A stretch of 64,000 bases of DNA from Clytia hemisphaerica. Lineage: Eukaryota; Cnidaria; Hydrozoa; Leptothecata; Clytiidae. The stretch is from assembly GCA_902728285.1 (NCBI GenBank), contig CACVBU010000136.1, positions 464,713 through 528,712 on the forward strand, written 5' to 3'. The notes beneath the pieces were generated by a model. It did not search any database. It was given only the letters and a program-made list of their open reading frames with translations, and had not been told where the DNA came from. This document shows positions 3,001 to 58,929 of this stretch, one piece after another. The translations under genes were made by a program, and so were the position numbers. Positions within the stretch are counted from its first letter, which is position 1. Each line of letters begins with the position of its first letter.

Positions 3001-3971
3001 AAATCAATGATACAATATTTCTTATGATAAAGAAAGGAGGTGTGCCTCTATACTGAGAAGGTAGAACATACAAAATTTGCACTCGTGTGGCACCGAAAGG
3101 GGAGAAAGACTTTCTTTCGTCGATTGAAAAATATGCAAGCAAATATCCTTTAAAAATTAATTTTCCTTGCTCATTCACAAAAGAAAACAGACTAAAGAAT
3201 ATAAAAAACACATGAAATAACGAGTACAGTTGCGCCATCGAAAGGAAGTATCTTTTAGAATACAGAACACCTTCCAGTAAAAAAGGGTACTTCGTGTTTT
3301 AGGGAAGGTTCCAATACAGTAGAGTCCAATACAAAACACTGACAGGCATAATATTTTAGTTGAAGGGATAAGGCTTCTAGAGAGAAGTTAATTTTTTTCG
3401 TACCTGTTCCGGTTTGACCATAACACATGAGAATTCCATTAAAGCCACTGAGTGCAGAATAGACCAGAGGTTCAGCCACGTTTTTGTACACTTCTTTATT
3501 GTTAGCATGGTCAGGAAGGACGCCATCGAATTGAAAAAGTTGGTCTTTCTTACCGTCGAATAGATTGATCTGTAATTAAAGAGTATTAAGTGTTAAACTT
3601 TCACAGAAAAATTGAGGTGTGGTTGATCAGATCTAACTTATTTTCCAGAGTTAACTTAGCAGAGCAGACAATGTGATAAGAAATTATCTGAGATGGTACG
3701 GATGACTTAAATTTCACAGTTTTAGGAAGACAGCATTTGCAGTAAAAACAACATATGACATTGATGCGTAACCAGAAACTTCTTCCTTCTAGTAGAAAAC
3801 AGAGTCGAATAGTGTCAAGACATCAAGACTAATTGTTGCCAAAGAAATAATCTACAAGATTTACCTGTTTGTTTTCGTCATCCGCGATGGTCACGGCAAG
3901 CGGGTGTTTATTGAGATCTTCCGATTCGTTGAGCGGTCGTAAACGGACAAAAACCTGGACACGACCAGGGT
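1..3971 (-). CDS. Kinesin motor domain, eight complete exons plus one cut by the window edge
   Basis: ATP-driven microtubule motor. Exons in transcript order: 3865-3971, 3404-3569, 2833-2930, 2610-2709, 1794-1917, 1343-1502, 786-821, 481-554 and 1-86 (continues off the left edge). All junctions are GT-AG and the phases agree throughout, giving about 317 codons. Visible motifs: the opening strand PGRVQVFVRLRPLNE; P-loop GQTGTGKT, split by the intron between 3404 and 2930; YMQIYQEKIYDLLNE; switch I NRVSSRSHA, split between 1794 and 1502; switch II DLAGSER followed by SEAMHINSS in the last exon. Between switch I and switch II there is an acidic insertion of about 75 residues (exons 1343-1502, 786-821, 481-554). 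The insertion and the VYKNVAEPLVYSALSGFNG-type core recall ungrouped (armadillo-kinesin-like) motors more than kinesin-1, but that placement is a guess. The C-terminal tail, which would settle the family, is outside the window. Confidence 0.95.
118..300. repeat. Fragment of the CTGTCTCACAGACC repeat family (kinesin intron)
   Basis: Contains CACAGCCCGGTTGAACTTC and GGGGATATAAAATTTCTATT blocks that recur at 12012-12285, 26320-26570, 27160-27430 and 27590-27840. No coding potential. Confidence 0.5.
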
Positions 3972-5440
3972 CTAAAAAAGAAATAGAAATAATAAAGTTC
4001 ATGTTTCTACCTCATTGAGGCCCAGTTGCATCAAAGTTCACTTGATCAGCCTTTAGGTATCCTTTAGCCATACTATACTACGCACTAAGGTACAGGATTT
4101 GTTGTATGGGAAATGGGAATCAGCTGGAAAGAGAAATCCAAGTAGTATAAAAAGGGCTTCAAAACGGTAAAATGATCACCTCGGTTTAATTTGCAATGCA
4201 TTACAACAAATCAAAAGAAATCTAATTGGTTAATACGAAGTGTAAACCAATGTGTCAGAGAAATGAGCCAAATTTATAGTGTTTAAAAATGAAATTTAAA
4301 TTCATATCTTTCCATGTTTCACAAAAACATAAAGGAAATTCTTCGCCATGTGAAAATAAGGAGAATTTCAAAAGGTCAATATTGTCATCAAAATTATCAA
4401 AAATTTCAGAGAAATATTTTGTAAATAGGGGATCTAAAAATGGAGGTTTTGTTAATAAAACCGTTCTGAGTGAAGTTGTTACGTCAGGTTTTGAAAGGTT
4501 AAAATCTCAAATACACCATTTAATGAAGCAAATCCCTAAAATTCCGTTTTTGATCTGACACAAAAATTTCTAATTCTATGATATTTACATCATATGAACA
4601 AACATATCGAAAATCTGATAGCCTTAACGAAAGTTTCAGACTGACAAAAAAAAGCTTCTTGGATTACATTCAAACAATGACGTCATCAAATAAATTTATT
4701 TCGTAATATGAATTTATGACATTTTAGTAGGAAATGAAAGTTCGACGCTGGATTAAGTTATGTTTTGCACAAACAATCTAAATTTTGAATTATGAGGAAA
4801 TGATAAACAATCGAAAAATCAAGAGTTTGTCAATCACTTTAAAGACACTTGATCCTTCTAGAAGTACAGAATCATTGTAAAACCTGGAAAAACTCACATG
4901 GGAAATATTAGAAGTTTGAAAAAAAGGCTAAAAATACTTTAAAAAGGGAATGTCAGATTTTAATCAAACATTCAAAATTCTGATCAATCGAAAAAATGAT
5001 CGGATTAACTTGATCGGATTAAATCTCCTTTAGATAAAAGTTGACAATTCATCGGTGCGACAATCATACCCTCTTCATGCAACTAAATGGCCCCATTTTT
5101 TTAATACCTCATAAATTCGACAAAGTACTAATTCCTATTAATTACTTAATGAAATCTGATTAACAAAACGCTATTATAATTTGACGATAAGGACGTCACT
5201 AACTTTTGGATACCCTCCATTGCTTTGGAAACTATATCCAAGAAAAAAAGAAACAGGTTTTAAGGTTTCTTTTTTAATTGTAAAGAAAATTTAGAGTGGA
5301 TCTTGAAAGTGAAAACTTTTAACATCAAAAATGCTTTAGTGTTTAGAATCAATCAGAAATATTTTAAATTATCTATCATCGTAATGGGGTTGGCATCATT
5401 ACGTCAGACAATCAAACCATGAAAAGATGCGCCATCTTAC

Positions 5441-5450
5441 CTGCTTTCAT
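5441..5450 (-). CDS. Possible minimal first exon (MKA)
   Basis: ATG AAA GCA G followed by GTAAGAT is a strong donor in phase 1, the nearest such site upstream of the motor exon. It would give a nearly bare motor (MKAD then PGRVQVF). It is only ten coding bases long, so transcript evidence is essential. Confidence 0.3.
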
Positions 5451-7357
5451 GGTGAACTGTGAACCGTCTCAGGCGTACTGAGGATCACTCAAAACATCTT
5501 TTTTATTCCTTTTTACGAAATCATACATGGAAAGAAAAATCTCATAACCTCTGTTTCAACATCTCAATAATACCGTCATTCAGAAATTTTAATTTAGCAG
5601 CTCCTAACCTTCTTTTGAATTCTCATGTAATTTGACTTTGGATGCAATATAAGACAATCCTACAGCTCTGTATGAAATCATGGTAAACAGATTAACTTTT
5701 ATTTTAAGAAGAAAGACGTCATCGAAAATTATTCCCACTTAACTTAACTCTCTCATTGATTTGATGAAATCAGTGTCCGTCAAAGTGAGTCGGACATGCT
5801 TGATCTCCCTACAACGTGGTTAGAATGTCTTACATTATGCAATGTGTGTAGATGGTACTACAAAACAAAGACTCTCTAGAACCCAATCTATATTCGTCTT
5901 TTTATTAGAACAATTTATAAGAATAATGAGGCTCAAAAACGTTTAAAAAAGAACAATTCAAGAACAACCCTGTCTCTGAAAAATGATTTCATGGTTCGGA
6001 TTAGTAAAAATAGGTTAGCTCATAAAACCTCAAATTTGGCTTAAAGAGAACGATTGCTGGCTAAAAAAATTGCGGGTCGTCATCTCTCAAAATAATTAAC
6101 TGGTTTTTATGAAAAAATAGTGTGCTAAAAGCTACCACAGCTAAATCATTCCATATTTCTTTTATTTCATCTCTTAACGAAAATCTCCGAGCAAAAATAA
6201 CAAAAAGACCAGGACAAGCTAGACTACCCTAATTTTTTAATTCATAAACGAGACATAAACCCAAATTATCAAAAAACGCATCTCGAACATCAAACAAATT
6301 CGAAAGTATACACAAACTGATAAAAAACAAATCGATTGATTGATATCGTCGTTCTAAACATTGCAATCTAGTATGATCATATCAGTTTTTTTGAATCTAT
6401 CTTTTTTTCCCATTAATTAGGAGATAATTTCGAAGCAATTAAGAAAACAGCAAGACAACTCAATAATAATTATGGCAAGGGAAAATAGTTAATGAGATGT
6501 GTTGAGTGTTTAGGTGGGCCCAATATTGGCCTGGCCAATGAATGGTTGATAGATAAGTACCATCATTAATTTGAGAGGAACCAAAGAAGACTAATATGAT
6601 ACTTCTCCTACGAAAAGCATTTAAATCGTCGAAAAAATGCTTAAAAATGCTCAAAAACAGAGCATGATTCTCGTAATTAATAATCCTCTCTCTAAATTGA
6701 ACCAATAGCTCCCTCAGTTTAGGTCTTACAGAAATTTATATATAATTCAAAAATTTGTATAAGATGAAAGTCTTCGTAACTCAAAGATTGAATTAGAAAT
6801 CTGTTGACCGATTGTTGACTGTTAGTACTTGAATAAGTTTCATTTTGAAATACTTTAAAATAGCACGAAGGTAGTGAAATGAAATTTCTTACACATCTCT
6901 TGTTAACTCTTGATTGTTGTTGAAATCAATCTTCAAAACAACAAATTCACATACAACATTTAATACCACTACTTCATCCCAAGCACCCACCACACATAAC
7001 AGATTAAAAACACACTGAAAACATTACAACAAATCTCTGTGTATCCACTTTCGAACACAACAAAACACAAACGTTCAGCGTAGTATCTAATTACAAACAA
7101 AAAGAAACTCGATGTCATTCCAGACACCATGTCAAAACTGTCGAATTTCCTGAACCAATCATTTTATAAACTCTTCAATTGTATTTTACTGTATACAATT
7201 AATGAATGCCACCATACAACCCTAAGGAAAACTGCGCTTTGAAACCGTTAGCTATTTAAATAGTTAGATATTAGATTTTAACCAAACTTCTATTTTCAAA
7301 GAGAAATACGAAATTAAGAAATTCTAAGCACATTTTTTTGAAACCATGACAACATAC

Positions 7358-7391
7358 CTGGAGCCAAACACAATAATTGTTTTGAACTCAT
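7358..7391 (-). CDS. Possible short alternative first exon (MSSKQLLCLAP)
   Basis: An ATG followed by ten codons ends at a GTATGT donor in phase 1, which would splice in frame to the motor exon at 3971 (MSSKQLLCLAP, then a split Asp codon, then PGRVQVF). The donor is good, but an exon this short could arise by chance. The case rests on its sharing phase 1 with all other upstream exons. Confidence 0.35.
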
Positions 7392-7695
7392 AATTTATTT
7401 GTTGATGAAATTTTCGTATTGAAATTATTAATACCATATGAAGAAGCAAAACTCTCATTTATGTAAAGTTTCAAATTCAAAACCAAGCATTTGCACTCTT
7501 AAACTTCAAAAGACCTTCTATTTCAGATGTATAATAGTCATAGAAGGTAGTCCCCAGGTAGTCTGAATCGCAGACCTCTATAGATTTAATTCCTATATTT
7601 CTATAAGAAACTCTTTCAATGTTTTCTATGTCCCACCATATAGGAACCCTGTTAAATGAACGTTCTTTTATTTTGTCATTTTTTGAAATCCTTAC

Positions 7696-8026
7696 CTTTG
7701 CCATCCATGAGGGTGTGTTTTGGGAAGGGTGAGACTGCGCTTCCCCTACTGCTTCTGTTACTTTTGTTACTCTTGGTACTTTCCCTACTGACACCACGGT
7801 AAATACTCTCACTCCTTGACACTGGTACCGTCATTGAATGACTGGATGTGGTGCTGGTTGCAATTTTAGGTGACGCACTGTTTCGTTTCTCATTTATACT
7901 TTTGATCTTCTTTAGGTTAGTTTTCTTGACGTATAAGGGCCGTCGACCAAACAATAAAGACTTTTTGGTGGTCGGTGCGTCCCCTTGTTTGTTGTCTTTC
8001 TGTTTGATTTTTTCGGAATCCATCAT
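7696..8026 (-). CDS. Kinesin alternative first exon, basic Ser-rich N-terminus (MMDSEK...)
   Basis: An open exon of 110 codons plus one base starting MMDSEKIKQKDNKQ and ending HTLMDGK before a GTAAGG donor (phase 1). That phase joins exactly to the motor exon at 3971, completing an Asp codon before PGRVQVF. Composition is rich in Lys, Ser and Arg with stretches such as STKSNKSNRSSRGS, so it is probably disordered and able to touch microtubules. An in-frame stop lies ten codons upstream. Every AG between that stop and the ATG would need a phase-2 partner, which no neighbouring exon supplies, so this is best read as a first exon with its own promoter, not a cassette. No known domain is visible. 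Confidence 0.7.
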
Positions 8027-9651
8027 TCTATCCGAAGAGGAACTCCTTTTTCTTCAAATCAATCAACCAAACGATAATAGATAAAACATTTGCCCAAAAA
8101 GTCCTTTTTTTGAGCTTTTGGAATCTATCCAGCCTTTATTCAGTTATACCGTATTTATGTCCCCTCATAATATTCTTTCTATTTTTCTCGATTCGTGTCG
8201 TCTTAATTTTCTGAATTCTCTTATCTTATTGAAAAACAAAATGAATAGAAGAAGAGAATAATTCATAAGAAGAAAATGAAGAAAATATTCGAAAAAGACA
8301 AAACCAAAAGTTATGCTTCCATATGACCTTTATTTTGGAGAAACTCCGTAAAGACTTTACTACCATTTTAAAGAATATTTCTGGAGTATTGGCCAAGAAG
8401 CAAGTAAGAAAATGAAGAAGTCAATATTTTTCGGGAAAAAAAAAGAAAATTAAAAACAATCAATACACAAAAGTTTTCACTGCGAAATCTTATCATCAAC
8501 CAGCAGATGTTTTTAGGGGGTTGAAAAAAGAAAGAAATAAAGTTCCTTCCCACCTCTATTTTCGCTCTCACAAACTGAGAAAGGATGGGAAAATGAACTT
8601 CTTTATCAAAGGGTTTAAAGCCACAACCTCTGGACAGGACAAACTTTCAGTTCGATAAAGAAACTTTTAAGGGGTTAATACTTCAGAAAGGTAAATAAAA
8701 AAACCAAAATCCAGATGCACTTCTAGATGCACATTGTTGGGACGATAAGAATTTTGTTTTTTTCATGTTTTTCATAAGAAAATTTTGATCAGAACACAAT
8801 TTCTGCCACAACCTAAGAACAACTCAGATTTCAGAACTGGCTGAGGGAATGTTGGTTTTTTCAAGCTCTTTAAGCTAAAAATTGAAGGAAGTAAACAATA
8901 AAAGTCATTTGAAAAATCGAACGTAAAAATCAGGAAAAAAAAGAAGAGCTGGTGTTCAGCCATAATTGACCAGATCTTAAAAAGCGGTTATTTGAAAAGT
9001 CTACGAGGATAATGAAGTAATCCATCATAACAACAAAAAGCAAGTTTACTGAAGTCTGGATTAAAAGTCAAAGCAAGAGCAATGAAAAGTTGAAAGAACG
9101 CACGTACACAACAAAACCATGCTACAGTATTGAAACTCTAGTAACATTGAGCATCAAAACAAAAAGCACGTGAAAAGTGTTCACTGAAAATCAAGTAACA
9201 GACAAAAAGAGCACACATGTGTCATCATAATCACACGTTTTCATGTAACACAATACACTTTATAAACGATGACAAAAATCGATAGATCGACTCAACACTT
9301 CATAAACCATGAAAATTGTTTTGTCATAATTCATATTTTAACTCTATAACATCTTAAACATGAAACAGACACAACTGTTGTGGCAGTTACATCTCCTTCA
9401 ATCAAAAAGCTCAAAAAGTTTGATACCATATCAAGCAATAAGTTGAGACTTAATACTTGTCTCTTTATGAAGTAAAGACAATTAAAGAATAAAGATGCCT
9501 CTTGATGAATTTTGGTTGTTTTATCTCTATCTATCTTATCTCGAAATCTCGACTTTTCTTTTGACTTAATTAATCCACTATCTTATTTCGTAAAATGGTG
9601 AACAAGCAGTTTTGTATAAACGAGATTTTTCTTTCTTTGGATGAGGAGTAA

Positions 9652-9854
9652 TACACGTCTTTTATAAGAACAAGATATGTAAGAACATAAGGCTTCGATG
9701 GCCAAAATCTTAAGAATAAGTTAAGAACATTATAAGGCTTTGTGGACTCTAAAACACCCAATGGACAAAAAAAAGGACAAAAAACTGACAAAATGGTAAA
9801 AATCAAAAAATTCAGAACATCTTAAATGTTGAATGTTCTTATAAAAAACGTGTA
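9652..9854. mobile_element. TA-flanked MITE, TACACGT/ACGTGTA family
   Basis: Begins TACACGTCTTTTATAAGAAC and ends GTTCTTATAAAAAACGTGTA, an inverted pair. 203 bp with no transposase, so non-autonomous. Same ends as 10606-10852, 12286-12653, 30273-30643 and 50123-50270. Confidence 0.75.
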
Positions 9855-10605
9855 ATGTAGATGACACGAGAATAGGCCACTGTTGTTACGAACCCAGTGT
9901 GAATCGTTTTGTCGTTTTCTCTCTCTTTCATGAAAATAATCAATAAAATGCTAATGCTATAGGAGTAAATCAAGGTTGCTCTCAGCCAAGAAAGTCTTGA
10001 TCAACACAAGATGTTCATTATAAGAAACACAATAAAATCTGATGCGTAATTTACATCGACTGTTTCAAAAACATAGCCGAAATATCCAGATTTCCACTCT
10101 TCTTAAAACAAGAATATTGGCAAATGTCAAAGATAACGACAAAAGAATCCTGATATTACCTAAGACACAGCATACCTGATCACAAACTAAGAAATACTTT
10201 TCATTATGCTTAAAATGCCATTTCAATGCATTATATACAAACAACTAACCAGCATCAAACCCAGCTTGAAATCAAGAGAGTGACAATACAATAAAGGAAG
10301 TCGAAACATAAACTATTATTGCTAGAAAAATTTCATTATATATTATCCTATTATGAGTGTCTCCAGTGGGAAAAACATTGACAATGCTTTACATAGAAGA
10401 AAAGAATAAAACTCGAATGCAAGGGGAAGCAGGGAAGAAAACCTTCAAGATAGTATTCCTACATTTCCTTCCTGTTTCTCCAGTTCAGTGATGAGGCAAT
10501 CAGCTCTTAAAAAGTTTTGAGAAAAATATCTCTGCCTCATCAAGCCTTTGGGAATCAACGTGATTTAATAATAAAAATCCCCATCATTATTATTGTGGTC
10601 AAATC

Positions 10606-10852
10606 TACACGTTTTTTATAAGAACAAACTATAATAAGAAGAAAGGCTTCGATGGCCAAATTGTTAAGAACAAGTTAAGAACATTTTAAGGCTTTGTAGA
10701 GCTTGAACACTCAATTTCTTAGGAAAATGGACAAAAATACATAAAAAATGGTGAAGTTAAGAACATGTTTAAAAGATTTTTAGGCTTAAAACTCAAAAAG
10801 TTAAGAACATCCAAAGGCTTCAAAAATTTTGCTCTTATAAAAAAAACGTGTA
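10606..10852. mobile_element. TA-flanked MITE, TACACGT/ACGTGTA family
   Basis: Begins TACACGTTTTTTATAAGAAC, ends CTTATAAAAAAAACGTGTA; 247 bp, non-coding, inside a kinesin intron. The interior resembles 9652-9854 (AAGGCTT...GATGGCCAAA, AGTTAAGAACATTTTAAGGC). Confidence 0.75.
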
Positions 10853-12011
10853 TTGCTGTCAACTTGGTCAATTCTTTTCAGTGGAAAATGCTGACTTAAA
10901 CGAGAGTCACAAGGTAAAAAATTATTAACATTTACGTTTATCGACAACCAAAATCTTTCTCAAGCGTAGCCCTAACTTTAAAATCACACTTTTATGATCA
11001 GAAGTCCGACACAGAAAAATGACATTGAAAAACAATACTCGAGTAAAAGTAATTAGACCGCATTTCTAACTCGTAACATGTATACATACAACACCATTCG
11101 AAAATCAGTTTTTTCTTTCCTAAATTTTCTCCAATTTCAACAACGTAGTTACAAAAATTTTTCATACTAATGTTGTGTATGTAAAAATGTCTCATGCATG
11201 TTTAAAAAAAGTTGAATATTGACATTTGCTATTAAACGTCTTAATCATTTCTCTGAACTTTTGAATTATAAAGTGCATGTCAACAATGTTGAGAAAAGTG
11301 TGTCTAACAGTCCGTTTATTGTCATTAGTAGGGGTCATCTACAAAGGGCTCAACTTTCAAAATATTAAGAATAACATAAGAAAGAGTATTAAAGAGAAAA
11401 TTGACAAAACTTTATACAATAGCACACTTTCATTTTTTTCTAACTTGCTTTTTATAGGAATTTTTATGTGCCATTTATTCTGGAGCGTAAATTGACTTAA
11501 CATTGACTAAAACTTTTTTAGTACATTCATCAAACACTGAATCAAAGGTTGAGTTGAGAATTGATATTGAAACTGATATTTATTGCACGTAAAGTTCACG
11601 CAAACCGAAATTGCAAGAACACCTTATCAAACACAATTTTCAAAAAGCAATTCTTATGAAAACTTGACAGTATAAACCTTTTAAGTAGATGAAAATTCCT
11701 TTGATTAGCACTACATGAATAGAGCAAAGCGGACGCGTGACAAACACAAGCGGAAAATAAACACAGGAAATCAGGAGAAGTTGACCAAAAGAGACCTTAG
11801 CAAGTCAACTCCATGGGAGAATGTTGACACCTCACAATGAGGCTACAAAATGGACTTCTTGTTTTTTAATCGTATTTTCTTGTCATATTAAAGTTGCATA
11901 CATAACTAGAAATGTTATTGTATACTTAACTTATACTTGTTGTAAATGAAAACCAAACGCTGGCAGAATACCGCCTTACTGTTTGAAAATTGGCAAAAAT
12001 AGCATAAAAGC

Positions 12012-12661
12012 ACACCCTGTCTCACAGACCCGGCCGAACTTATTTCCTCAATAGGGATAAAAATTCCTAGTGAAATCCCAAAACCCCAATGGGGATAAAA
12101 ATTCTATTCTTCCAAGGTTAAAAAATCCAGTGGAGATGGTTTTGGAGTGCAATTTTTAAACATTGAATTTCGAGTGCGGATGAAATCAAAGTCAATTTCC
12201 CAGTGGGGCTGAAATTCCAAGGTATTTTCCTACCGGGGACGAAATTTTCGCTGCATTTTCGAGTGGGGTCCCAGCGGGTCTGTGATACACGTTTTTTTTT
12301 TTATTAGAACACTTAAAATTTGACTGAGCCTGGATGTGCTTATTTTTTTAGCAATTTTCAGCCTTAAATGTTCTTAAATGCGTTCTTAATTTTTCAGACT
12401 ACTCTAAATCGACAATATCATGCAAAATAAAGAGCATATAAAATTGGTCAATTTGGACAATATTTGACTCTCGATTTTAGAAAATCCATGCCTAAGTTGG
12501 GTTAAAACTGCTTGAAAAGAAGAAAAATTGTAGTTTCTTGTCATTTTTTTCCAAACTGAGGCTGGGCATGTTCTTACGATGTTCTTAATTTTTCGACGAA
12601 TTTCAGCCTAAATGTTCTTATAAACTGGGTTCTAATAAAAAAAAAAACGTGTACAGGGTGT
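12012..12661. mobile_element. TIR repeat (ACACCCTGTCTCACAGACCC), split by a later MITE
   Basis: Left end ACACCCTGTCTCACAGACCC pairs with right end GGGTCTGTGA|TACAGGGTGT once the MITE at 12286-12653 is removed. The interior has blocks such as GATAAAAATTC and CCAGTGGGGCTGAAATTCC, repeated elsewhere in the window. Confidence 0.7.
12286..12653. mobile_element. 368-bp MITE inserted at a TA inside another element
   Basis: TACACG followed by a T-run and TTATTAGAAC at the left; TTCTAATAAAA followed by an A-run and CGTGTA at the right. Nearly identical along its length to 30273-30643. It interrupts the 12012-12661 element at a TA, as Tc1/mariner-type elements do. No ORF of transposase size. Confidence 0.85.
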
Positions 12662-12793
12662 ATAAACTAAAATTTAATTTTCTTTAATGCTCAATCCCTA
12701 AACTAGATAGTAAATTGGGCCTATAAACATAAAGGCGGAGAACCTATATCCTTATCAATATTAAGAGTTAAAAGAAATGAATTAAGAACTTAC

Positions 12794-12824
12794 AAACTTT
12801 CTTAAAGGCGCTGCTGTGTGACAT
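12794..12824 (-). CDS. Possible short alternative first exon (MSHSSAFKKV)
   Basis: Ten codons from an ATG end at a GTAAGTT donor in phase 1, giving MSHSSAFKKV plus a split Tyr codon when joined to the motor exon. It sits in the large intron between the 14745-14984 exon and the 7696-8026 exon. The donor is near consensus; coding potential cannot be judged at this length. Confidence 0.35.
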
Positions 12825-13978
12825 TTTCCTGACAGTCATAAGTAGATTGATCAATTTTCTTGGTATTCAAGTCTTCATCGGTCTCAAATGTTGTGATGTT
12901 CAAAAATGTTGAAAAATTTTTTTTCTGAAATTCCCCTTTTTTCCCTTTCTTCGTTTTTTTATCAAATGAAGTGATTAATAATCAACATCAGAACCAAAAC
13001 GAAGAAAAGAAGATTTCAGAGATAAGAAAATTTCTTCCCCCTTTGGATGGGCAACGTATAAGAAGACTATGAAAAGATTGAACCTGAAAAAATTCTAAAG
13101 AAGTAAAGAAACTGACGCAGAGATGGACAACAACATTGAAAAAAATAGAAGATGTTTCTCATAAATTATTTAACAGACGAAAAAATGAAATGATAACTGG
13201 ATATTTTCATCGAAAAGAACGATGGTTAGAAATTGTTTAAACGAAGAAAGATAATATCTCGTTGAGATGACACTGTTTCGTGTCTATGAAACAAGTCAAA
13301 CTTGAAAAACGATCAAAAGGGTTCCTGTGGGTTGAACACTGAAAAGGAGTCTGAAAAATACTTGCAAAGGAAACTTGACTTTGAGCAATCCCTTCGCCTT
13401 GAGAATGTGCCCCGATGTGATCATTGTCAACTCATAAACTATACTCACTAAAAATCATTTTTAAATCGGCAAATCTCAACAAATGCTCCAAATTTGCAGG
13501 ACTATCCTCCCTAAAAGTCGCTTTCTATTGACCAATTTAGTTTTACAAAACAAACTCCCTATAGACTGTTCACATGAGTCATTGACTGTCGCCCTTATTT
13601 AATAAAGTTCCCTATGGTTTAGAAGGTAGACATAGAAAGTCCCTCTAGCAAACATAGCTGTGAGTGACCAATGAATGGCTCCGTCTCTGTAATATAATAG
13701 AGACTGTACCAAACAAAGAAATTAAAAAAGAATATCCTTGCAAAACTCAAGGAACTAAGATGTCTGCAGTCAGCATCAACTAAATTTTAACCTTACAAAG
13801 TTTCAAAGTCATGGTAAATTCTAAGATCGAAATGTTAATAACAACAATTAAATTTTAGAAAAATGAGCAAGAAGCTTTTGTTAATAAACACTTTTTTACT
13901 AAAGATGTATCAAAGAATTCAATCATTTTCAGCTATATTTTAAAAACAAAGAATAACGAAAAGAAGAAATAGAGATAC

Positions 13979-14000
13979 CTGTGAAACTTTCAACCGTCAT
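13979..14000 (-). CDS. Possible short alternative first exon (MTVESFT)
   Basis: Seven codons from an ATG end at a GTATCT donor in phase 1, compatible with splicing to the motor exon at 3971. The donor is weaker than those of the other candidates. It is listed because it shares phase and strand with them. Confidence 0.25.
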
Positions 14001-14744
14001 TTTACATCATCAAGCAAGTCTTCACACAACTTGTTACAGAAAACAGTACAGCATTCTCACCAAACACTAGAAAGTCTCGACGTTATCTTTCTTCAATAAG
14101 TATAATAATATTTCTCTTACTCTTCAGACTCATGAAAATTTAAAATCAAAATAAGTGTGAAAAATTGCAGTCAGGAAAAAAAATGGAAGAATAAAAAAAC
14201 AAAAGCAAAGAGCGAAAGGAAGAAATATGTAACAGCTTGTTAGTTTATGGGGTTTTTCTTTTTATTGGATTTTAATAAAAGAGCTCAGTATATGAGAAGA
14301 TAAACATAGAGTTGAGACAATAAAATGTTCCCATTAAATTTTCACAAAAAGGTCTGAACTTGAAACTTGTTTCAAAACTGTTTAAAATGATATTGAAGAA
14401 CGATTTGTCTTGATAAGATTAGCAAGAATCAACTGCTATCAAGTTGTAAATTCAGTGAGCTTCTTCTTTAAAGAAAATTTTCATTGTATGGTGGAAGATG
14501 ATTAGCTTGTATAACAAGGAACTTGAAGCGCTGACGGCAGGAACTACCTATCACTCAGGCTATGGCGACGCAGATTGCAGAATATCACGATGTTAACCAG
14601 ATTCTAATTTCAATTAATGTTTTTGTGCAGTTGTTTTGATTTTGTTTGACTTGTTTGCATTGTCATTATTATGTTTTATGGTCCGAAATTATTTTGGAGT
14701 TCAAAATTCAGTAATGTAAACAATGAACAATAGACTATTCTTAC

Positions 14745-14984
14745 CATTTACAGTAGTGACTTTAGTCCCTGGTCTTCGACTCATAATTCCTTCTTTCTTT
14801 GCAATATCCAAAGTATGAAAAGTCCCTCTACGTTTCAAGTTGATGCTTTTCTTTGAAGGAGGAGCAACAGATAGAGTGTCTTGCTGTACAGCTGGTTCGA
14901 TGACTGGCAGGGTATTGGACACTGGTGAACGTTTGTTGACTTTGGGTCTTTCACCAGCACTGAATGATTTGTGCCTCTTTACCA
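14745..14984 (-). CDS. Kinesin N-terminal cassette exon (VKRHKSFSAGERPK...)
   Basis: A 240-nt exon with a CCCAG acceptor and a GTAAGAA donor, entered and left in phase 1, so it can be kept or skipped without changing frame. It encodes about 80 residues beginning VKRHKSFSAGERPKVNKRSP and ending KVTTVN. The residues are basic and rich in Ser, Pro and Thr with no folded domain, typical of regulatory or microtubule-binding linkers. It joins the preceding exon at 15308 by completing a Leu codon and can join the motor exon at 3971 through an Asp codon. It contains no start codon near its 5' end, so it depends on an upstream exon. Confidence 0.75.
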
Positions 14985-15307
14985 CTGGGAATAAAAGTTA
15001 CAAAAGAATTTCAGTAAAAAGTCATGAATTTCCTTATACAAAATATACCAAATCATTAATGTTTTACAAAAAATAATTTTCTGGTGTCTAATGTCATTTA
15101 ATTAACATTTAATTAAGACATTTTAAAGTTTTTTACTTCCCGATTGAAAATTAGGAAAGTCAGGAAAATCAGGTTTCGTCTTCTTCCTGCTCCTCTGCCT
15201 TAGCGGAGCAATAACTTTTAACTTTAGTTCAAAGGTATGGTTAACAATCAATATTTGTCGGGCCCTTTTAGCAAAAACATTGTAAATTTCATTCTGATAA
15301 AACTTAC

Positions 15308-15670
15308 GCATAGGATTAAGGCCAGATTTCTTAGGTAACTTTGAAGTATCTTTGGGATGATCTTCAATCTTTTCAACAACAGGTACTGGTTGTCTTAAAG
15401 TACTTTTCCGTTCATACATGCTATGATTACGTTGTAGGCTATTCCTCCTTTGTTTGGTGCCAGCAGCTGTGGGTGCATCTGATCGTCCACTTGATTCTTG
15501 TTGCTTCACAGCAGCATCAAATGATGCATTAAGTCTATCAAGGGTTGTAGATTCAATCCTTGTTGAAGACTCCATGATGGCTGACGCAGATGCTCTACGA
15601 CTGAATTGTGGTTGAGGTATCCTAGACGACAGTCTTCCACTGCTCATGCTGGCTGAGAGGATCTTTGCAC
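15308..15670 (-). CDS. Kinesin N-terminal cassette exon with an SxIP-like motif
   Basis: A 363-nt exon with a TTTCAG acceptor and a GTAAGTT donor, phase 1 on both sides. It encodes about 121 residues: AKILSASMSSGRLSSRIPQP near its start, then Ser/Arg/Gln-rich sequence ending KKSGLNPM. SRIP fits the S/T-x-I/L-P signature by which proteins bind EB1-family plus-end trackers, and it lies in the basic, Ser- and Pro-rich setting such motifs need. No folded domain is seen. An internal ATG at 15647 could also serve as a start. The exon is symmetrical and could be skipped in frame. Confidence 0.75.
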
Positions 15671-17322
15671 CTGAAATTTGAAAGAATAAGTGGCTATAAG
15701 TAAGAAGTAATTTTTCAATTTTTGCCTGATTTTTGTTAATTATTGGCGCTCCTATCTCTAACTAGACTTTTACTTTAGATTTTAGGCAGGGTAGAAGGTA
15801 GAACTGTTCTTGTAAAATAAAGCTTATGTGTGGAATGAAAACGACTAAGCTTTTTTTTCAAGTAGTGCTTCCTATACTATAAGATAATACAAGTTTTCAA
15901 TTTGAAGTAGCATTTTTCTGTTTTATATTTGAGATTGAAAAGAGGTGGAAATCACTGTTTGAAAATAATCACAATTGAAAAAATAATGAGTAGAGAAATC
16001 TTTTTGTGGGATCTGTAGCCTCTTATGTACATTTTTGGGCCTATCTTGTTCGTATGAGGTCATGAAAACTAAAAAAAGAAGCTTGAAGGGGAGCTGAAAG
16101 GTAGCCAAGGTTTTGACCTCTTAATATTTAAAAGATGCTTTGTTGCAAACAAAGTCGGTAAATTCCAAAGCCAATTGTGTGTCTTCAGAAGTTTTTGGCT
16201 CATTCTTCACTTACAAAACAAAATACAGTCTATCTTAAACTCACATTGACTTTTAAGTTTTGTTCTGCATGATGTGGAAAATCCCTTTCCTTGGTGGGCT
16301 TGAAAAGTTTTGAAAGCATGGGTTTACACTTTCATTCACTTGGTATATCAAAATGTAAATTTTTGGACTTGTAAGGGCATGACTGGTAATTTCCTTTCCC
16401 AGAAGTTTTCAGCTTGATACCCAAGTCAATCAAAGTTACTTCCCATGACTTTTAACATTCGAATTTTCGGTCTCCAATTCATGAAGTTGAGAGACATGAT
16501 ATGACTTACTTGAAGACAAATTGCAGACAAGAAAAATTAATTGTTTATAGGTGATGAATATTAACCCTCCTAACCCTAATGAAAGTAAAAACAAGCCATA
16601 GTATGTGTACCAACCAGTTTATATGCCTTCAAAAACAATTTACAGAAAACATACATTTTTGACTTTGTAATCCAATCGGAATCAATTTTCAATATTGGGC
16701 TAAAGCTGAATAAATAACCAAAGAACGTATCATAGCACAGTATTTCAAAGATTCCAAAGATAGGAAAATAAAATATCTTTGAAGTCTATTATTTGGATGA
16801 AAAAAAGAAAGAATTTTGCTTGGATTCATTTCTGTTATACTGTTGGCGTTTGAGACAGGTAACACCTAGACACCCTTTCTAATAACATTGGAGTAACACA
16901 ATTATAAACTTTTTTGTTTAAAGATGTTTGTCTTTTCATCTTTAAAGCATCCTTAAGTCTTTAGACATGCTATAGAGAATTCTCAAAAGTAATTAAGCGT
17001 AAAATAATTGCTTTCTCAAGATATTTTAACAAATCACCAATGCCATCATAAATATTAAAAATATCCAATCTAGCAAATGGCTTTCCATTGCCAGGTTTTC
17101 AAGCTAGACGTGTGTTGAACAAGGCTACACAATTGTATATTTGTGTGTGAAACATAAAAGCCTTGTGATGTGCAACGAAATCAAAATAAAACATACCACA
17201 TTTTTTTCTTTACGGTATTTTGACCACTTTACGTGTCTTTTTCAAGTTCAATTGTATATTTGAATATTACCTCAGCTGTTTGCTTCAATTACATTGGATT
17301 GATTCAATTATATTTACACTCG

Positions 17323-18146
17323 TACCGTAAACTGCTCTAACTTGGGACTATCTGACCAAATATGGGACGGCAATTCAGCCACCATTTCACCGAACCTCCA
17401 AAGTCATTTAATTAACATATCGCAAATCATAGATAGCAAATAAAGTGAGTACGCTAATCTCACCAGGTAGGCTTTCACGCCGCAAAAGGAACAAATCTTA
17501 ACGACAAGTAACGTGTAAATGCAATCGGTGCATTCGCGCGAGCGCCCAAACAACACAGATATAAAAAAATCCATTCTTTCTTGTGAGATCTGTTATCGAC
17601 ACTTGGTAACTTTGAAATGTCAACCAATCACGCACACTGGAAAAAAGTCTCCAGAGAAAACAACACAAAAAAATGGCGTCAAGATGTGAGCAGCGTGAGT
17701 GTGATTAAATTGTTAATTACTTCTTCAAATCATGTACAGTAAGTTGGTCTAATCTCGACATCCGTCTTCTAATTTCGACACCATTCTTTAGAGATAGGAA
17801 TAATATGAAAGTTGGAATCGGTGATTGAAAAAGAATTTTTCCTCTCTTACCACTAAGCAAAGAAAAATAGTTTCAACCTTTCTATTATTTTCAGCTCTAG
17901 AAATGGGTGTCGAATTTAGACAAGGGATGTCAACATTAGACCAAGTTACGGTGTACTTTTAAAATGCTTTAAAAAATACATTTGGTTGTGATTATAAGAT
18001 GGTGAAATTTTGATTGATAAACTTGGTTGAAGTATCAAAACAAACTTGTTGTTAAAGAGATTTAAACAGTAAGTGAATTAATACAGTCCAGAAATCAACC
18101 GTCCCAAGATATGACAAATCGTCCCAAGTTAGAGCAGTTGACGGTA
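17323..18146. mobile_element. 824-bp TIR element with a second element inside
   Basis: Ends TACCGTAAACTGCTCTAACT and AGTTAGAGCAGTTGACGGTA. A partial copy of the left end is at 58978-59080. It contains the 220-bp element 17735-17954. In a kinesin intron. Confidence 0.75.
17735..17954. mobile_element. 220-bp TIR element nested in 17323-18146
   Basis: Ends TACAGTAAGTTGGTCTAATC and TTAGACCAAGTTACGGTGTA, with inner GTCGA(A/G)ATT blocks also inverted. A similar single end occurs near 62502 (TACCGTAACTTAGTCTAATG). Confidence 0.7.
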
Positions 18147-19254
18147 CGGCACGGTACTTATGCGCTCAATCTTATCTTATTTTCGTGGCATATTGGCGGC
18201 CGCCCACACTAAAGCTCTAAACAGTGCGTCACAAAGAGCGATATTTTGATTGCACGGAAGCACTTCAAAACACCAGCTTTTTTCGAGTTTTGTCTCGTTT
18301 ACCCAAACGCTTCAATCTTGCGTAGGCTTAGGGGTCAAGACTAGAGCCCCAATAAGAGACATTTGCCTGACCAAAAAAAAATCATCATTGCCAATTTTGT
18401 TAATTGTCAGAATCGTTTACTCACTGGAAATATGCAACATTATGAAGTTGCGTTTTTTTTCGGTTGTGCTTCATTTTAAAAATAATGAAGATGAAAAGTT
18501 AACATCAATCCTGCGAGTAAAAAAAGGTACTCCGACTAGTCTATGAAAAGTGCGCTTGCGCAGCGAATAGAATATCTAGCAAATTAATATATGCATAAAA
18601 CTGACGAAATCCTTTCTTTTTTATGCTTAGGTGACGTCACCTCGATCCTGACTTGACAATGGAGAACCAAATTTGGCAATGCATAATTATTACAAGCGGC
18701 TGAGAAAGTTTGTGTGACGCCAAAGTTGCGCGATAAACAAAGCGCTAGAAAAACGCCCACTGAAAATTGAAACTAGGAATTTAATGAATATTTCACTAAT
18801 GAAGTATCAAAGTTTTTGTTTTTTGTAATTTATATTATTAATTCATAGTTTTTAAATATATTTTTTGAAAGTCAAAAGGACAATTAAAGTGAATTTAAGA
18901 TGATTGGGTGGATATTGGGGCGGAAGGGCGTTTTGCACGTTCCGAGATTGGAAATTAGACGAGAGTGAAAGACAGGGGCGTTTTAGTATGTAATATTAAT
19001 TCATTATTTCTTTATTTTTATTTTTCGCACGCAATCAAACACAATTGAATCCAAGGAATCAGTAGTTCGATTGCTTTTGACAATCAAATAACAATCATTC
19101 GATCACATTTGATTGTTTTAATTGCAATTTTTGTTCAAACTTGTTTGATTGACACCGTCTGACAGTTTTATCAAACTCAAATTCTCCACTTCGACGTTAT
19201 TTTTGCTGTCAGGCGGCTGTGCCACCATATTCAGTTAGGAACATTTGGCGAGTT

Positions 19255-19920
19255 CCTGTACGCGGCCGCAATCAAAAAAATCATAACATCACTCGTTAAA
19301 AAACGGCGTTCGTGTCTCTTCGCACTTTTTTTAGCCTAGACGATGTAGCAAACATAGTAAGTATAAGCACACTGTGCTTTTAATTGGCTGAAATTTTTTT
19401 TTGCGTCGGAAAAACTTTTTCAAACTTTCAGCGATGATTGACCAAACTGTTACAATGAAAATTATCCAGCGCATTTTTTATCTTCTTACCTTCTTCATTT
19501 TCAATGAAGCACTCAAAGTTTACTGAAGGTAAGCACATAAGATATTCTTATAATTAATGATACTCATTGAAACACACTTTGTTGTGCACTGCGGTGGAGT
19601 GCATGACGTAACTCGCGCGGCAACTAACTCGCCTTCTGTTGGAAGATCATATTGGGCGTTTTGGCGTTACCACCCATGGAAGCAGCGGGCGCCTCTGTCT
19701 TTCCGCAACTCTTTCCACCATTTTAGATGGTCTTAACAATAGATCCAAAAGGGCGCCATAATCTTGGAAGATGATTTGTTTTGGTCTCCGGCTTTGGGAA
19801 GTAGCAATGTTTTTGGTTGTTTTCAATGGGAAATGGTAAGAAACTTAAGTTTACAAGTGTCATTTAGTTTTTGCTGGTTTATAGAATGGCAGGATCCTGG
19901 ATGGTTTCCCTAACTGATAT
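19255..19920. repeat. Kinesin-locus segment duplicated at 58.0-59.6 kb
   Basis: Blocks 19258-19440, 19441-19530 (includes the micro-exon) and 19840-19915 each match sequence at 58013-58197, 58887-58980 and 59530-59615, in the same order and orientation but with different spacing. Confidence 0.75.
19490..19522 (-). CDS. Kinesin micro-exon (VNFECFIENEE)
   Basis: A 33-nt exon between a TTCAG acceptor and a GTAAGAAG donor, phase 1 in and out, encoding V-NFECFIENEE before a split Gly codon. It fits in frame between either upstream start exon (19973-20090 or 23616-23730) and the 15308-15670 cassette. An exact copy of the exon and its splice sites is present at 58930-58962 in a duplicated segment. 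Short length makes it uncertain, but preservation of both sites and frame in the two copies is supportive. Confidence 0.5.
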
Positions 19921-19972
19921 TGTATGAATAAAAGTGGTTTTTCCTGCTGGTAGGCAATAGAATTACTTATAC

Positions 19973-20090
19973 CTGAATCATCCAAACCAAAATCAGGGAA
20001 CCAGTCTTCTTCTTCACCTGTTGATTCTTCAGGAGATGGTGTACGAGAAATGGATGATGAAGAAAAATATACTGAACATGCACTGTCCAT
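19973..20090 (-). CDS. Kinesin N-terminal start exon (MDSACSV...)
   Basis: An open exon of 39 codons plus one base, MDSACSVYFSSSSISRTPSP followed by an acidic run (EESTGEEEDWFPDFGLDDS), ending at a GTATAAG donor in phase 1. It can join the micro-exon at 19522 or the cassette at 15670 without a frame change. Upstream bases AGGAAAAA before the ATG could also be read in frame if the exon were entered from 23616-23730 using a weak TTGAG acceptor, so it may be either an alternative first exon or an internal one. No known domain; the SRTPSP stretch looks like a proline-directed kinase site. Confidence 0.65.
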
Positions 20091-20379
20091 TTTTTCCTCT
20101 CAACTGAAGTGCAGTGCAGCCCTGGTCCTCTCAATATTATACAGTAATTTATATTTATAGATTCATCGTAATTTAAGCATCAAGAAGTCTTTGACAGTTT
20201 AAAATGACTCTTAAAAATAACAACACTCCATGTTCAAGATCTTTTTTTGATGACGAAATGATATGCGTCCTTCCTCCAAGTTTTTTTTTTTTTTTCTGAA
20301 ACTCGTGGTGTCCTGTTTGTTTACATCGCACCATATTCAGACTTTCGATAGAGGTGCGGAATCTCAAATCTGTGATATT

Positions 20380-21134
20380 CAGTCAAGTACTATTGCAAAC
20401 TAGGAGAAATGCGTGTATTTCGCTTAAATAGGATGATTTATCCTAAATAAGATATAATCGATAGCTTAGTTAGGAGAAATAGCAGAAAAAGTTGATTTTC
20501 TGAACAAATTCAGAGATCCGCGTCAAGCTTTGCATAAATTTAAGGAATTTGGAGCTAGTATAGTATGCTTGTGAAGTCTGATCCATCAGTCAGCGTGCGT
20601 TCAGAAGTTATTCAACTTTTGACAAACTTCAGATTTTATGCATCAAACTCTCTTAGTAAAAACTTTGCTCGTAACGATGTTTTGAAGAAATAGAAACTTA
20701 GATATAAATAAACTTATCCTATTGTTGTAGTAGACACATTTGCGCAATTTACGTTTGTGTGGTTTGTGTCAAGGAGAATGAACACTTTCTCGTCCTTCGA
20801 CACTTTTGATTCACGCTCATATTTTTCATACGGCAAAGCGTGTAACAAAAGCATTATTTCTCCTAATTTGTATATTTTATCCAAAATAGGATAAATGTTT
20901 TATATTTTTTCACTCCGCGCTGATAAGAAGCTGACATTTGGCCTAACATGATCTTCTTTATGAGTATAATTGATTTAGAGAGTTAAAAAGACGCGGATCT
21001 CTGTAGTTGTTCAGAAAATCAACTTTTTCTGCTATTTCTCCTAACTAAGCTATCGATTTTATCTTATTTAGGATAAATCATCCTATTTAAGCGAAATACA
21101 CGCATTTCTCCTAGTTTGCAATAGTACTTGACTG
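20380..21134. mobile_element. 755-bp element with ~150-bp inverted repeats
   Basis: Left arm starts CAGTCAAGTACTATTGCAAA; right arm ends TTTGCAATAGTACTTGACTG; pairing continues for about 150 bases with few mismatches. Flanked by ATATT on both sides (20375-20379, 21135-21139), a likely 5-bp target duplication. No transposase. Confidence 0.85.
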
Positions 21135-21138
21135 ATAT

Positions 21139-21395
21139 TAGTGAGGTTAAGTAAATCGGTAACATCACGACGACGAACGAAAATTTAACAGGCTAGTGAG
21201 TTTCAACCAATCAAATTTCGTATTTCCACTAGCCTATTATATTTTTCGTCCGTCGTCGTGATTATCCCGGTATCACGACGACGAACGAAAATTTAACAGG
21301 CTAGTGAGTTTCAACCAATCAAATTTCGTATTTCCACTAGCCTATTATATTTTTCGTCCGTCGTCGTGATTATCCCGGTATACTTAACCTCACTA
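21139..21395. mobile_element. Palindromic element with a tandemly doubled 108-bp core
   Basis: Outer ends TAGTGAGGTTAAGTA and TACTTAACCTCACTA. The core is a 99-bp palindrome (ATCACGACGACGAACGAAAA to TTTTCGTCCGTCGTCGTGAT) present at 21164-21262 and again at 21272-21370, apparently identical. Confidence 0.85.
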
Positions 21396-21469
21396 TTTTA
21401 GCGCCGTAAAAATCTATATGGTATGGAGTGGTTTGTTGTGTGACCGTAGACTGCACTGCCGTAGAGACG

Positions 21470-21815
21470 TACAAATCAAGGTCATAATATTTGAGAAAAA
21501 GGTAAATTTCCCAGGAAGTTTTGAAACACAATCGATTTGTAAATGTGCTCTCTAAAGTAGGTTCGAAGGGTAGAGTTTTAACTCTGAGTTTTAACGCTAG
21601 ACTTAGTACTTAGGAGCTTAGGATCTGAGGATTTAAATATTCAAAATAGTCCAATAGGGCTCAGATTATAGCCTGGAAGACTGCCAACTCCTCCCAAATT
21701 TAGATATTTGATTAGGTTAAAGAGATAGCCCAAAATCGACTTTCTCGCCGGAACTTTAAATCTTGAAAAGCGTTAAAATAACCTGAATTCTCAATATATT
21801 TCGACCATATGATTA
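21470..21815. repeat. Dispersed repeat, copy 1
   Basis: Blocks AAGGTCATAATATTTGAGAA, CACAATCGATTTGTAA, AGAGTTTTAACTC and AAATCGACTTTCTCGCC recur in order at 39765-40110, and less well at 24615-24850. No ends or coding sequence identified. Confidence 0.65.
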
Positions 21816-22130
21816 TAGATTATGCTATAGTCTAAGACGAATCACAGAAATAAGCCCAAAGCCGACAAAAACTCGCAAACGGCAAAGACGATGTTATCGT
21901 CTGTTACAGGGATAGTAGTAAAGGCGGGAATATGCACAGAGTCTAAAGCCGTTATGGTGGTACACGGTAAGAAATCGGCGGGGGAATTTCGAAGAAACGA
22001 CAAGACTGACAAACTCTACCGACTGTAAATTCTTTTCGGCAAGAGACTCCGTTTGCAAATTTTCTTCGGCTTTCGGGCATATTTTTTAGTTAGTGATTTG
22101 TCTTAGATTATAGCATAATCTAGTGTGATA

Positions 22131-22627
22131 CTTTAATCGTAGAAATTTTAGCGAGACTAATTTTAGCGTTTTAGCGAGTTTTCCCTATTTTTGCTAAAAT
22201 TAATCTCGCTAAAACACGCCGAATCGACAGATCGCTAAAATTTATCCGCGCTAAATTTTTCCAAAACGCAATTCGCTAAAATAAATCCAGTTTTTTTCTT
22301 CTTTTTTTTTACGATTTTTGCGAAAACTAATAAAGATATTTATTTTTGTCGGTCCCTAGAGTTCTGGAAGAAAATGTAGGCTTAAAAACACACGCTTATC
22401 TCGAACCTCCGTTATATCTCGAACTTTCACCAAAATACATCTCAAAAAGTTATTTGGAAATGGCGATTCGCTAAAATTAATCCACGCGAAATTTTCTGAG
22501 ACAAGTATTCGCTAAAATTTATCCACGCGAAATTTTTTGAAATCGTGATTCGCTAAAATAAATCAAGATTTTCCTGACTCGCTAATATACGCTAAAATTA
22601 CTCTCGCTAAAATTTCTACGATTAAAG
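22131..22627. mobile_element. 497-bp TA-flanked TIR element rich in CGCTAAAAT
   Basis: Ends CTTTAATCGTAGAAATTTTA and TAAAATTTCTACGATTAAAG, flanked by TA. The interior has many copies of a TTCGCTAAAAT(A/T)(A/T)ATCC motif in both orientations. Confidence 0.75.
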
Positions 22628-23260
22628 TAGTGCGATACTGAAAAAGACGATGAAACCCACCCTAGGCTGGCAGGCTGACGTGTAATATAAATTTTGGTGT
22701 CGGTAAAGCACAAAATTAATGAGGCACCAATTCTATCGATTTATCGGTGGCAATTTTTTGTGTTTTTTTTTTCATGTAAATTAAGTAGAAAATACCGTAG
22801 ATGATGATACATAGATAGATAGCTTATTTTCATTAATGATCAAATATATTCCTGACGTATTTCCAGGATCCTTTTGCTATTTTTTTGGGGGTGTTATGAC
22901 AAGAATAATTGTTCTGCTGTATAAAAATGCGTGGACAAATTTGGTACTGGCCACCCAAGTCGAGTAACTTTCATAACCGCCAGAGTCTTGTTTTTTTATT
23001 CGTTGTAAAGCGGCAACAAGAACAGGTTTTGGTCAAGTTTTGGCTGGGTGGAAATTAGAAATTTTCAGTATTCAGGAACTAACGGTAGCTAAAATAAGAT
23101 ACGCAAATCCTATGAAATAACTTAAAAAATCTAGTTGATAAAGACAACCGTCGAAACGTCACACGCACTACTGTATTTTTAATGTTCACTTTTAATTTTT
23201 GACACAAATATACATTAGCTTTTACATTCACTTAATAAATCTAGGATAGAGTAAATAATC

Positions 23261-23554
23261 CCGGGGGGGGTACTACCCTTGTCGATCAACGGGGGTGCTC
23301 CGCTGAGGTTCGAAAAATGAACCCTACGTGGGACTCGAAATTTGCGAAAAAAGTGACCCTGAATGGGACTGAAATTCCAAAATTTTCTCAAATTTTCTAC
23401 TTTTTCACCAAATTTTCCAAAAATAGGCACCCTACGAGGGACTGATTTTTCTATTTTGGTGTTTTGCGACCCTACCTGGGCGACTCGTGGAGGTTGAAAA
23501 AGGTACCCTGACCAGCGGAGCATCCCTGTAACCCATCTTGCCCTAGTACCCCGG
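23261..23554. mobile_element. G-rich TIR element with a 10-bp flanking duplication
   Basis: Ends CCGGGGGGGGTACTA and CTAGTACCCCGG; GTAAATAATC occurs at 23251-23260 and 23555-23564. Inverted inner blocks GGTGCTCCGCTG / CAGCGGAGCATCC. It lies just 3' (on the minus strand) of the distal kinesin exon. Confidence 0.75.
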
Positions 23555-23615
23555 GTAAATAATCAGCTCATACTTTTCAAATAACATAACGTTCGGCGGG
23601 AGAGCAGGCTCTTAC

Positions 23616-23730
23616 CTTCAATGGAAGCACTATGATCATCTTCAAACTCATCATGAGCTTCGACATTTTCCTCATCTACTGTACTGTTTAGTACAATTTG
23701 TATTGATTCTTCGCGATATTGTGTACCCAT
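23616..23730 (-). CDS. Most distal kinesin first exon (MGTQYREES...)
   Basis: ATG plus 37 codons plus one base, encoding MGTQYREESIQIVLNSTVDE and then an acidic segment ending DDHSASIE, with a GTAAGAG donor in phase 1. It joins the micro-exon at 19522 or cassette at 15670 in frame. With both large cassettes it would give about 250 residues before the motor. It is the furthest-upstream coding exon I can support; I did not identify the promoter. Confidence 0.65.
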
Positions 23731-30272: not shown

Positions 30273-30643
30273 TACACGTTTTTTTTTTTATTAGAACACT
30301 TAAAATTTGGCTGAGCCTGGATGTGCTTATTTTTTTAGCAATTTTCAGCCTTAAATGTTCTTAAATGCGTTCTTAATTTTTCAGACTACTCTAAATCGAC
30401 AATATCATGCAAAATAAAGAGCATATAAAATTGGTACAATTTGGACAATATTTGACTATCGATTTTAGAAAATCCATGCCTAAGTTGGGTTAAAACTGCT
30501 TGAAAAGAAGAAAAATTGTAGTTTCTTGTCATTTTTTTCCAAACTGAGGCTGGGCATGTTCTTACGATGTTCTTAATTTTTCGACGAATTTCAGCCTAAA
30601 TGTTCTTATAAACTGGGTTCTAATGAAAAAAAAAAAACGTGTA
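30273..30643. mobile_element. 371-bp MITE, near-identical to 12286-12653
   Basis: Same ends (TACACG plus T-run; A-run plus CGTGTA) and interior (TAAAATTTGGCTGAGCCTGG, CATGCAAAATAAAGAGCATA). Only a handful of differences over the length, suggesting recent movement. Confidence 0.85.
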
Positions 30644-53377: not shown

Positions 53378-53515
53378 TTTTGTATTCTTTTATTTTCAAC
53401 TGAAAATTAAGTTGAATCAAAGTAATTTTATTCATTTAAATTCAAATCAGGGGGGTATCGAGTCAGTGTACTGGCCCATAGCTGCTGGGGTGGTGTATTT
53501 TTTAGATTAAATTGA

Positions 53516-53828
53516 GTTAGTACAGTGTACTTAAAGGGTGGTCCTCTGAGAAAAATACAATGGAAAAGTTAGTACAGTGTACTTAAAGGGTGGTCCACTG
53601 AGAAAAATACAATGAAAAAGTTAGTACAGTGTACTTAAAGGGTGGTCCACTGAGAAAAATACAATGAAAAAGTTAGTACAGTGTACTAAAAGGGTGGTCC
53701 TCTGAGAAAAATACAATGAAAAAGTTAGTACAGTGTACTAAAAGGGTGGTCCACTGAGAAAAATACAATGAAAAAGTTAGTACACTGTACTAAAATGGGT
53801 GGTGTTCTGAATTGATACACACTGAGAA
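53516..53828. repeat. 52-bp minisatellite upstream of CHORDC1
   Basis: GTTAGTACAGTGTACT starts units at 53516, 53568, 53620, 53672, 53724 and 53776, spaced exactly 52 bases, with a diverged last unit. It begins about 140 bases upstream of the CHORDC1 start codon. The unit resembles the terminal GTTAGTAC sequences of the 55805-56345 element. Confidence 0.9.
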
Positions 53829-54240
53829 GTTAGTACATTGTACTAATCTCAGTGGTAAAAAAACACAAACCCAGTGAATTCCCATGTATATTTGGCCTAA
53901 TTTGCCAGGTCAAAGCTGGTCCGAGACCTTCAAGTCAAGGCTGGTTAAGCTATACAAATTGGCACACTGATTTTCTCCTAATGTTTCCTGTTTTTACTTG
54001 ATTGGATTTGTTTCAGAGTCGCAGCATGCGCAAGTGGAGACCGGCCTTAATTCCAATCTTGTTTACGTTTTTTTAAAGCCCTATCTACATTATGGCAACA
54101 ACAAGAATTTGAATGTGTAAACATTCAAAGCGAAGCTTTCAAGTTTTATAAAAACAAATCCGCTCTATTGCTTTATGTTTTTTAGTAACCTTGTTGGATT
54201 GATGTTAATTGAAAAAAAATCTGTATATAAGTGAAATCAC

Positions 54241-58886: not shown

Positions 58887-58929
58887 CTGTTACAATGAAA
58901 ATCATCCAGCGCATTTCTTATCTTCTTAC

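Follow-up and report, generated by a model that had tools for sequence, protein, structure and literature searches.

Genes with alternative first exons are well known. In yeast Kip2, the extension ahead of the motor is unstructured, highly basic and serine/threonine (S/T)-rich and binds EB1 via an SxIP motif, and phosphorylation of this extension reduces both EB1 binding and microtubule affinity (PMC4657329). Symmetrical cassette exons are also already well known: a reviewer's comment in PMC6335736 mentions 1-1 exon shuffling in Trichoplax and Nematostella and adds that most of the exons that are skipped code for disordered regions. Among the open-licence papers listed in our searches, none was on a kinesin whose alternative first exons give exchangeable pre-motor tails. 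Here we describe a 64,000-nt stretch of the genome of the hydrozoan Clytia hemisphaerica (contig CACVBU010000136.1, positions 464,713 to 528,712; hereafter, the window) that contains the 5' portion of a kinesin gene. Its predicted exons are best explained, with moderate likelihood, as the 5' end of a single kinesin gene in which alternative first coding exons would give long and short front forms.

The locus would resemble yeast Kip2 and fission yeast Tea2, as described in PMC4657329, in having a predicted basic S/T-rich pre-motor stretch with a candidate SxIP-type motif. It differs in that the yeast kinesins have one extension under phosphorylation control, whereas the predicted extensions here would be chosen by the first exon. 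With the symmetrical exons of animals (PMC6335736) it would share frame-preserving 1-1 exons, although only two predicted cassettes are supported here.

The kinesin motor

The kinesin gene lies on the minus strand, and its motor exons extend leftward from position 3971 past base 1. The first motor exon (3865-3971) is entered in phase 1 through an acceptor of 13.0 bits and is followed in the spliced model by exons 3569-3404, 2930-2833, 2709-2610, 1917-1794, 1502-1343, 821-786, 554-481, and 86-1. These nine exons join without a break into 316 residues that include GQTGTGKT (the P-loop), SSRSH, and DLAGSER, which are motifs of the kinesin motor domain. The spliced motor matches the Pfam Kinesin family (224.4 bits, 2.4e-66). 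In the PDB, 155 distinct sequences match it with E <= 0.001, and KIF3B is at the top (1.5e-40). By its motor motifs, Pfam match, and PDB matches, the gene is assigned to the kinesin superfamily. The PDB scores are spread over families (KIF3B: 142.6 bits, CENP-E: 139.1 bits, OSM-3: 123.9 bits), and in the PDB-search alignment the spacing from SSRSH to DLAGSER is 89 residues, compared to 28 in KIF3B. The rest of the motor after DLAGSER, the neck, and the tail lie past base 1, beyond the window. Plant armadillo-repeat (ARM) kinesins (ungrouped, ARK/KIN-U) may have a similar motor start and a similarly long insert before DLAGSER; any C-terminal ARM repeats of the Clytia gene would fall beyond the window. 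An identity with the kinesin-13 klp-7 was rejected, as KIF2/MCAK is absent among the 60 of the 155 PDB matches that were listed; the excerpts of the klp-7 paper (PMC4500558) do not mention alternative starts. In viral_contigs, 11 stretches fit the motor pattern and none of them encodes a relative.

An ATG at 4000-4002 (minus strand), in the intron just before the first motor exon, reads via the polypyrimidine tract into the frame of the motor. A start at this position could give a motor that lacks nearly all of a front end, and the ATG is probably there by chance.

Predicted start exons and cassettes upstream of the motor

Upstream of the motor, three predicted minus-strand exons start with ATG and end in phase 1: 23616-23730 (38 codons), 19973-20090 (39 codons; a probable start exon), and 7696-8026 (110 codons). 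An in-frame TGA stands above each ATG, with 4, 3, and 9 codons between, respectively. With a stop in frame above each ATG and donors in phase 1 that fit one acceptor, these three exons have the arrangement of alternative first exons. Two longer candidate cassettes, 15308-15670 (363 nt) and 14745-14984 (240 nt), lie on the same strand, are phase 1 on both sides, and would encode basic tails, the former S/T-rich. A coding connection from 23616-23730 to 19973-20090 as consecutive exons was rejected by hand, their frames being incompatible. A preliminary description of the window listed these five exons and a 33-bp cassette (19490-19522) as parts of an all-phase-1 set in front of the motor; its minus-strand coordinates, lengths, and phases for these six main exons are correct, with GT/AG edges (GT only in the start exons), and the phase-1 entry of the motor at 3971 is confirmed in the spliced model.

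From this set, together with four short ATG exons, the preliminary description derived a large modular system of seven starts and three optional cassettes, freely combined into many isoforms. In its favor, when the three long starts are combined with any of the three cassettes, all 24 combinations read in frame into the motor and meet no stop. However, the short ATG exons (5441, 7358, 12794, and 13979) belong to a class found at chance frequency and carry no weight: exons of at most 60 nt with an ATG, a phase-1 end, and a donor of at least 5 bits number 10 on the minus strand and 13 on the plus strand, with a mean of 8.6 in 60 shuffles. The 33-bp cassette falls within a dispersed repeat, and skipping of the cassettes is a possibility that would leave the frame unchanged. 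We consider the full modular set very improbable, and the many isoforms reduce to two or three front ends.

The common phase is itself weak evidence for modularity. If the start exons share the phase-1 acceptor at 3971, all of them have to end in phase 1, and the shared phase is therefore a requirement of alternative first exons. In the trusted gene models, 9 introns are in phase 0, 6 in phase 1, and 6 in phase 2 (n = 21), so a pair of cassettes that are always included upstream of a phase-1 acceptor has a chance of about 8% that both are 1-1. What stands of the modular design is the sharing of one acceptor by alternative first exons, which is the best reading of the locus.

The 33-bp cassette was rejected as a conserved exon because it is dispersed-repeat sequence with a score within noise (17.0 bits vs 19.6 bits for the best antisense exon in the scan described below). 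The repeat block that holds it, 19441-19539, is found again at 58881-58979 with 96% identity over 99 nt, and the blocks 19238-19453, 19435-19539, and 19839-19916 return within 57987-59611 with order and orientation kept. This second copy, about 5.5 kb upstream of the start of the CHORDC1-like gene, is split by other sequence, once by sequence resembling the element at 17321-18148. The 33 bp, frame-neutral and with exon-like edges, are identical in the two copies. In BLAST comparisons, the 62 nt round the cassette (19478-19539) are 100% the same in both copies and the flanking blocks 85-87%, with part of the difference due to gaps. This identity could hint at constraint, but the second copy is outside any identified gene, and for this reason we do not attribute it to selection. 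An open frame, followed by hand, continues through 19490-19522 and its supposed introns, and the peptide of this frame had no Pfam match in either repeat copy. A 19-mer of the repeat occurs in 5 stretches in genome_contigs and in none in viral_contigs, with about two chance matches expected in 257 billion bases.

Start exon 7696-8026 probably has its own promoter. As proposed earlier, it cannot be entered in frame from the other exons, given that all AGs from its upstream in-frame stop to its ATG demand phase 2 (checked by hand) and that none of the proposed upstream starts and cassettes ends in phase 2. Frame would be irrelevant if the exon were reached from noncoding exons of the 5' untranslated region belonging to one distant promoter, in which case splicing, not promoters, would decide between the forms. 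Consistent with this route, position 8027 resembled an acceptor in an earlier site model (4.9 bits, phase 2). In the retrained model, the 400 nt upstream of the ATG of 7696-8026 contained no acceptor above 4 bits; by contrast, 23730 and 20090 have acceptors of 8.9 and 8.4 bits some 100-120 nt upstream. A single distant promoter is quite unlikely in our judgment, and a separate promoter for 7696-8026 is preferred.

Exon scans and chance controls

Codon and splice-site models were trained on three genes of the window (the kinesin motor and the SIL1-like and CHORDC1-like genes; 21 donors and 21 acceptors), with approximate textbook frequencies as pseudocounts. The region 3972-24500 was scanned for exons, blind to the exon list of the preliminary description. 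On the minus strand, 15308-15670 (25.7 bits) ranked at the top of the scan, followed by 23616-23730 (23.1 bits), 7696-8026 (20.4 bits), and 14745-14984 (18.5 bits, tied with an unrelated 47-nt candidate at 10055-10101), and then by 19973-20090 (17.8 bits) and 19490-19522 (17.0 bits). By score alone, 14745-14984 is below the best antisense exon (19.6 bits). In an earlier version of the scan, with two training genes and the region 3960-34900, the top four minus-strand exons were the same four, and the antisense maximum was 17.8 bits.

Chance levels were estimated from 100 shuffles of the scanned region, from which the four strongest exons had been removed. The best shuffled start exon had a mean of 12.8 bits (95th percentile: 17.2, maximum: 20.1), and 23616-23730 exceeds the top start exon in every one of the 100 shuffles, while 19973-20090 is just over the 95th percentile. 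The best shuffled internal exon had a mean of 20.4 bits (95th percentile: 25.4, maximum: 30.8). When length and score were combined into classes, with thresholds that were picked after the scores were known, none of 300 shuffles reached the class of 15308-15670, 7696-8026, or 23616-23730, whereas three reached that of 14745-14984 and five that of 19973-20090. By these measures the three start exons and two of the three proposed cassettes exceed the usual shuffles, and the third cassette is the repeat-borne stretch. There are four 1-1 candidates of at least 200 nt on the minus strand and one on the plus strand (mean in 60 shuffles: 0.32), the four being overlapping versions at two loci plus 23226-23507, which has a negative coding score. 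In four of the six main exons, the proposed frame scores higher than the other five reading frames. Together, these controls suggest that five exons (three starts and two long cassettes) are probably coding, with 14745-14984 and 19973-20090 as the weaker two.

Front-end peptides and predicted forms

The peptides of 23616-23730 (net charge -11 over 38 residues) and 19973-20090 (-9 over 39 residues) are acidic, and those of 15308-15670 (+10), 14745-14984 (+12), and 7696-8026 (+17) are basic and S/T-rich. EB proteins bind the pattern [ST]x[IL]P. The coding frame of 15308-15670 contains SRIP, with a local net charge of +4, and SKLP (+2); no [ST]x[IL]P motif is present in the other five frames of this exon or in the other four N-terminal peptides, and the peptide of 7696-8026 has no SxIP. 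The charge pattern, like the exon anatomy, the frames, and the stops above the start codons, can be read directly from the DNA.

In the reading that we prefer, a long form would start at 23616-23730 (or 19973-20090) with an acidic cap, continue through 15308-15670 and 14745-14984 with a basic S/T-rich tail, and end in the motor. A short form, probably transcribed from a promoter of its own, would start at 7696-8026, and the motor, unchanged, would be preceded by nothing but a different basic tail. The pre-motor tails may tune microtubule affinity, and SRIP and SKLP of the long form may recruit the motor via EB proteins, by analogy with yeast Kip2. The long form would thus be an EB-recruited motor in which the acidic cap offsets the basic tail, and the short form would have a basic tail without the EB motif. 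That start choice acts as a switch between an EB-recruited and an EB-independent motor, such that the promoter and not only phosphorylation would set plus-end targeting, is an unlikely extension of the Kip2 analogy.

One gene or two

We infer that all five exons lie in one gene and are in use, and several observations weigh against this. One is base composition: the observed/expected CpG ratio (CpG o/e) and the GC content of third codon positions (GC3) are 1.2 and 0.41 in the motor and 0.71 and 0.48 in 7696-8026, and they are 0.36 and 0.29 in 15308-15670, 0.38 and 0.33 in 14745-14984, and 0.22 and 0.18 in 19973-20090, with mixed values (0.85 and 0.18) in 23616-23730. Likewise, CpG o/e in 500-bp windows is 0.25-0.57 at 14-17 kb vs 0.42-1.15 at 1-14 kb. 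In mosaic-methylation genomes, a single transcription unit is often more uniform in CpG. The split fits two genes, in which the kinesin starts only at 7696-8026, and 23616-23730, 19973-20090, 15308-15670, and 14745-14984 make up another minus-strand gene that lies upstream and stops short of 8 kb, for instance in a terminal exon at 13619-13686. This candidate (phase-1 entry at 13686, acceptor of 10.1 bits, 21 codons) scores 14.1 bits vs 11.4 bits for the best antisense one, and a gap of 10.8 kb separates 14745 from 3971. However, this short terminal exon was the top one of 23 candidates, the donor phase at 14745 agrees with the acceptor of the motor (as would happen by chance in about one case in three), and the CpG o/e of 23616-23730 breaks the split. 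The upstream tail, basic and S/T-rich with EB1-type motifs, suits a microtubule protein, and the upstream peptides had no Pfam family match. We regard two genes as possible but rather doubtful, and one kinesin gene with alternative first exons as the better account.

Further points count on the same side as base composition. The internal exons (25.7 and 18.5 bits) are not significant against the shuffles by score alone, and in two exons, 19490-19522 and 19973-20090, another of the six frames scores better than the proposed one; in the latter, one antisense frame outscores the coding frame. The EB-motif test was post hoc, with shuffling P-values of 0.015 for two [ST]x[IL]P motifs and 0.057 for one SxIP, and the enrichment of basophilic phosphosites showed no clear signal, with P-values of 0.033, 0.50, and 0.78 in three exons.

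Neighboring genes and repeats

Divergent from the kinesin, a predicted SIL1-like nucleotide exchange factor occupies 34951-37526 on the plus strand with five exons (Pfam SIL1: 35.6 bits at a cut-off of 35.5; Fes1: 31.7 bits). A CHORD-domain gene, CHORDC1-like (Pfam: 1.4e-48), lies at 46400-53377 on the minus strand, in a model without the 3' part, and one of its introns holds a predicted CTHRC1-like gene on the opposite, plus strand (50743-52085; PF25815, 1.4e-42). The CHORD, CTHRC1, and SIL1 families of these neighbors point to an animal genome. Just upstream of the CHORDC1-like start, a 52-bp minisatellite (53515-53846) carries acceptor-like sites of 6.9-8.4 bits at exact 52-bp spacing (53545, 53597, 53649, 53701, and 53753), which are possible tandem 3' splice sites. 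Among the other repeats, a 370-bp element is present in two copies with 98.7% identity (12286-12653 and 30273-30643), a 108-bp unit forms a perfect tandem (21164-21381), and a 146-bp inverted-repeat pair shares 98% identity (20379-21135); these three look like traces of young mobile elements. Neither the Rfam scan nor the tRNA scan had a hit anywhere in the window.

Discussion

If the two-gene alternative is true, the locus would hold an ordinary single-start kinesin beside an unrelated small gene. If the preferred reading of alternative first exons is true, one kinesin motor would be given chemically opposite front ends by the choice of the start exon, and this Clytia gene would provide a direct test system for the effects of pre-motor tails on microtubule affinity and plus-end recruitment.

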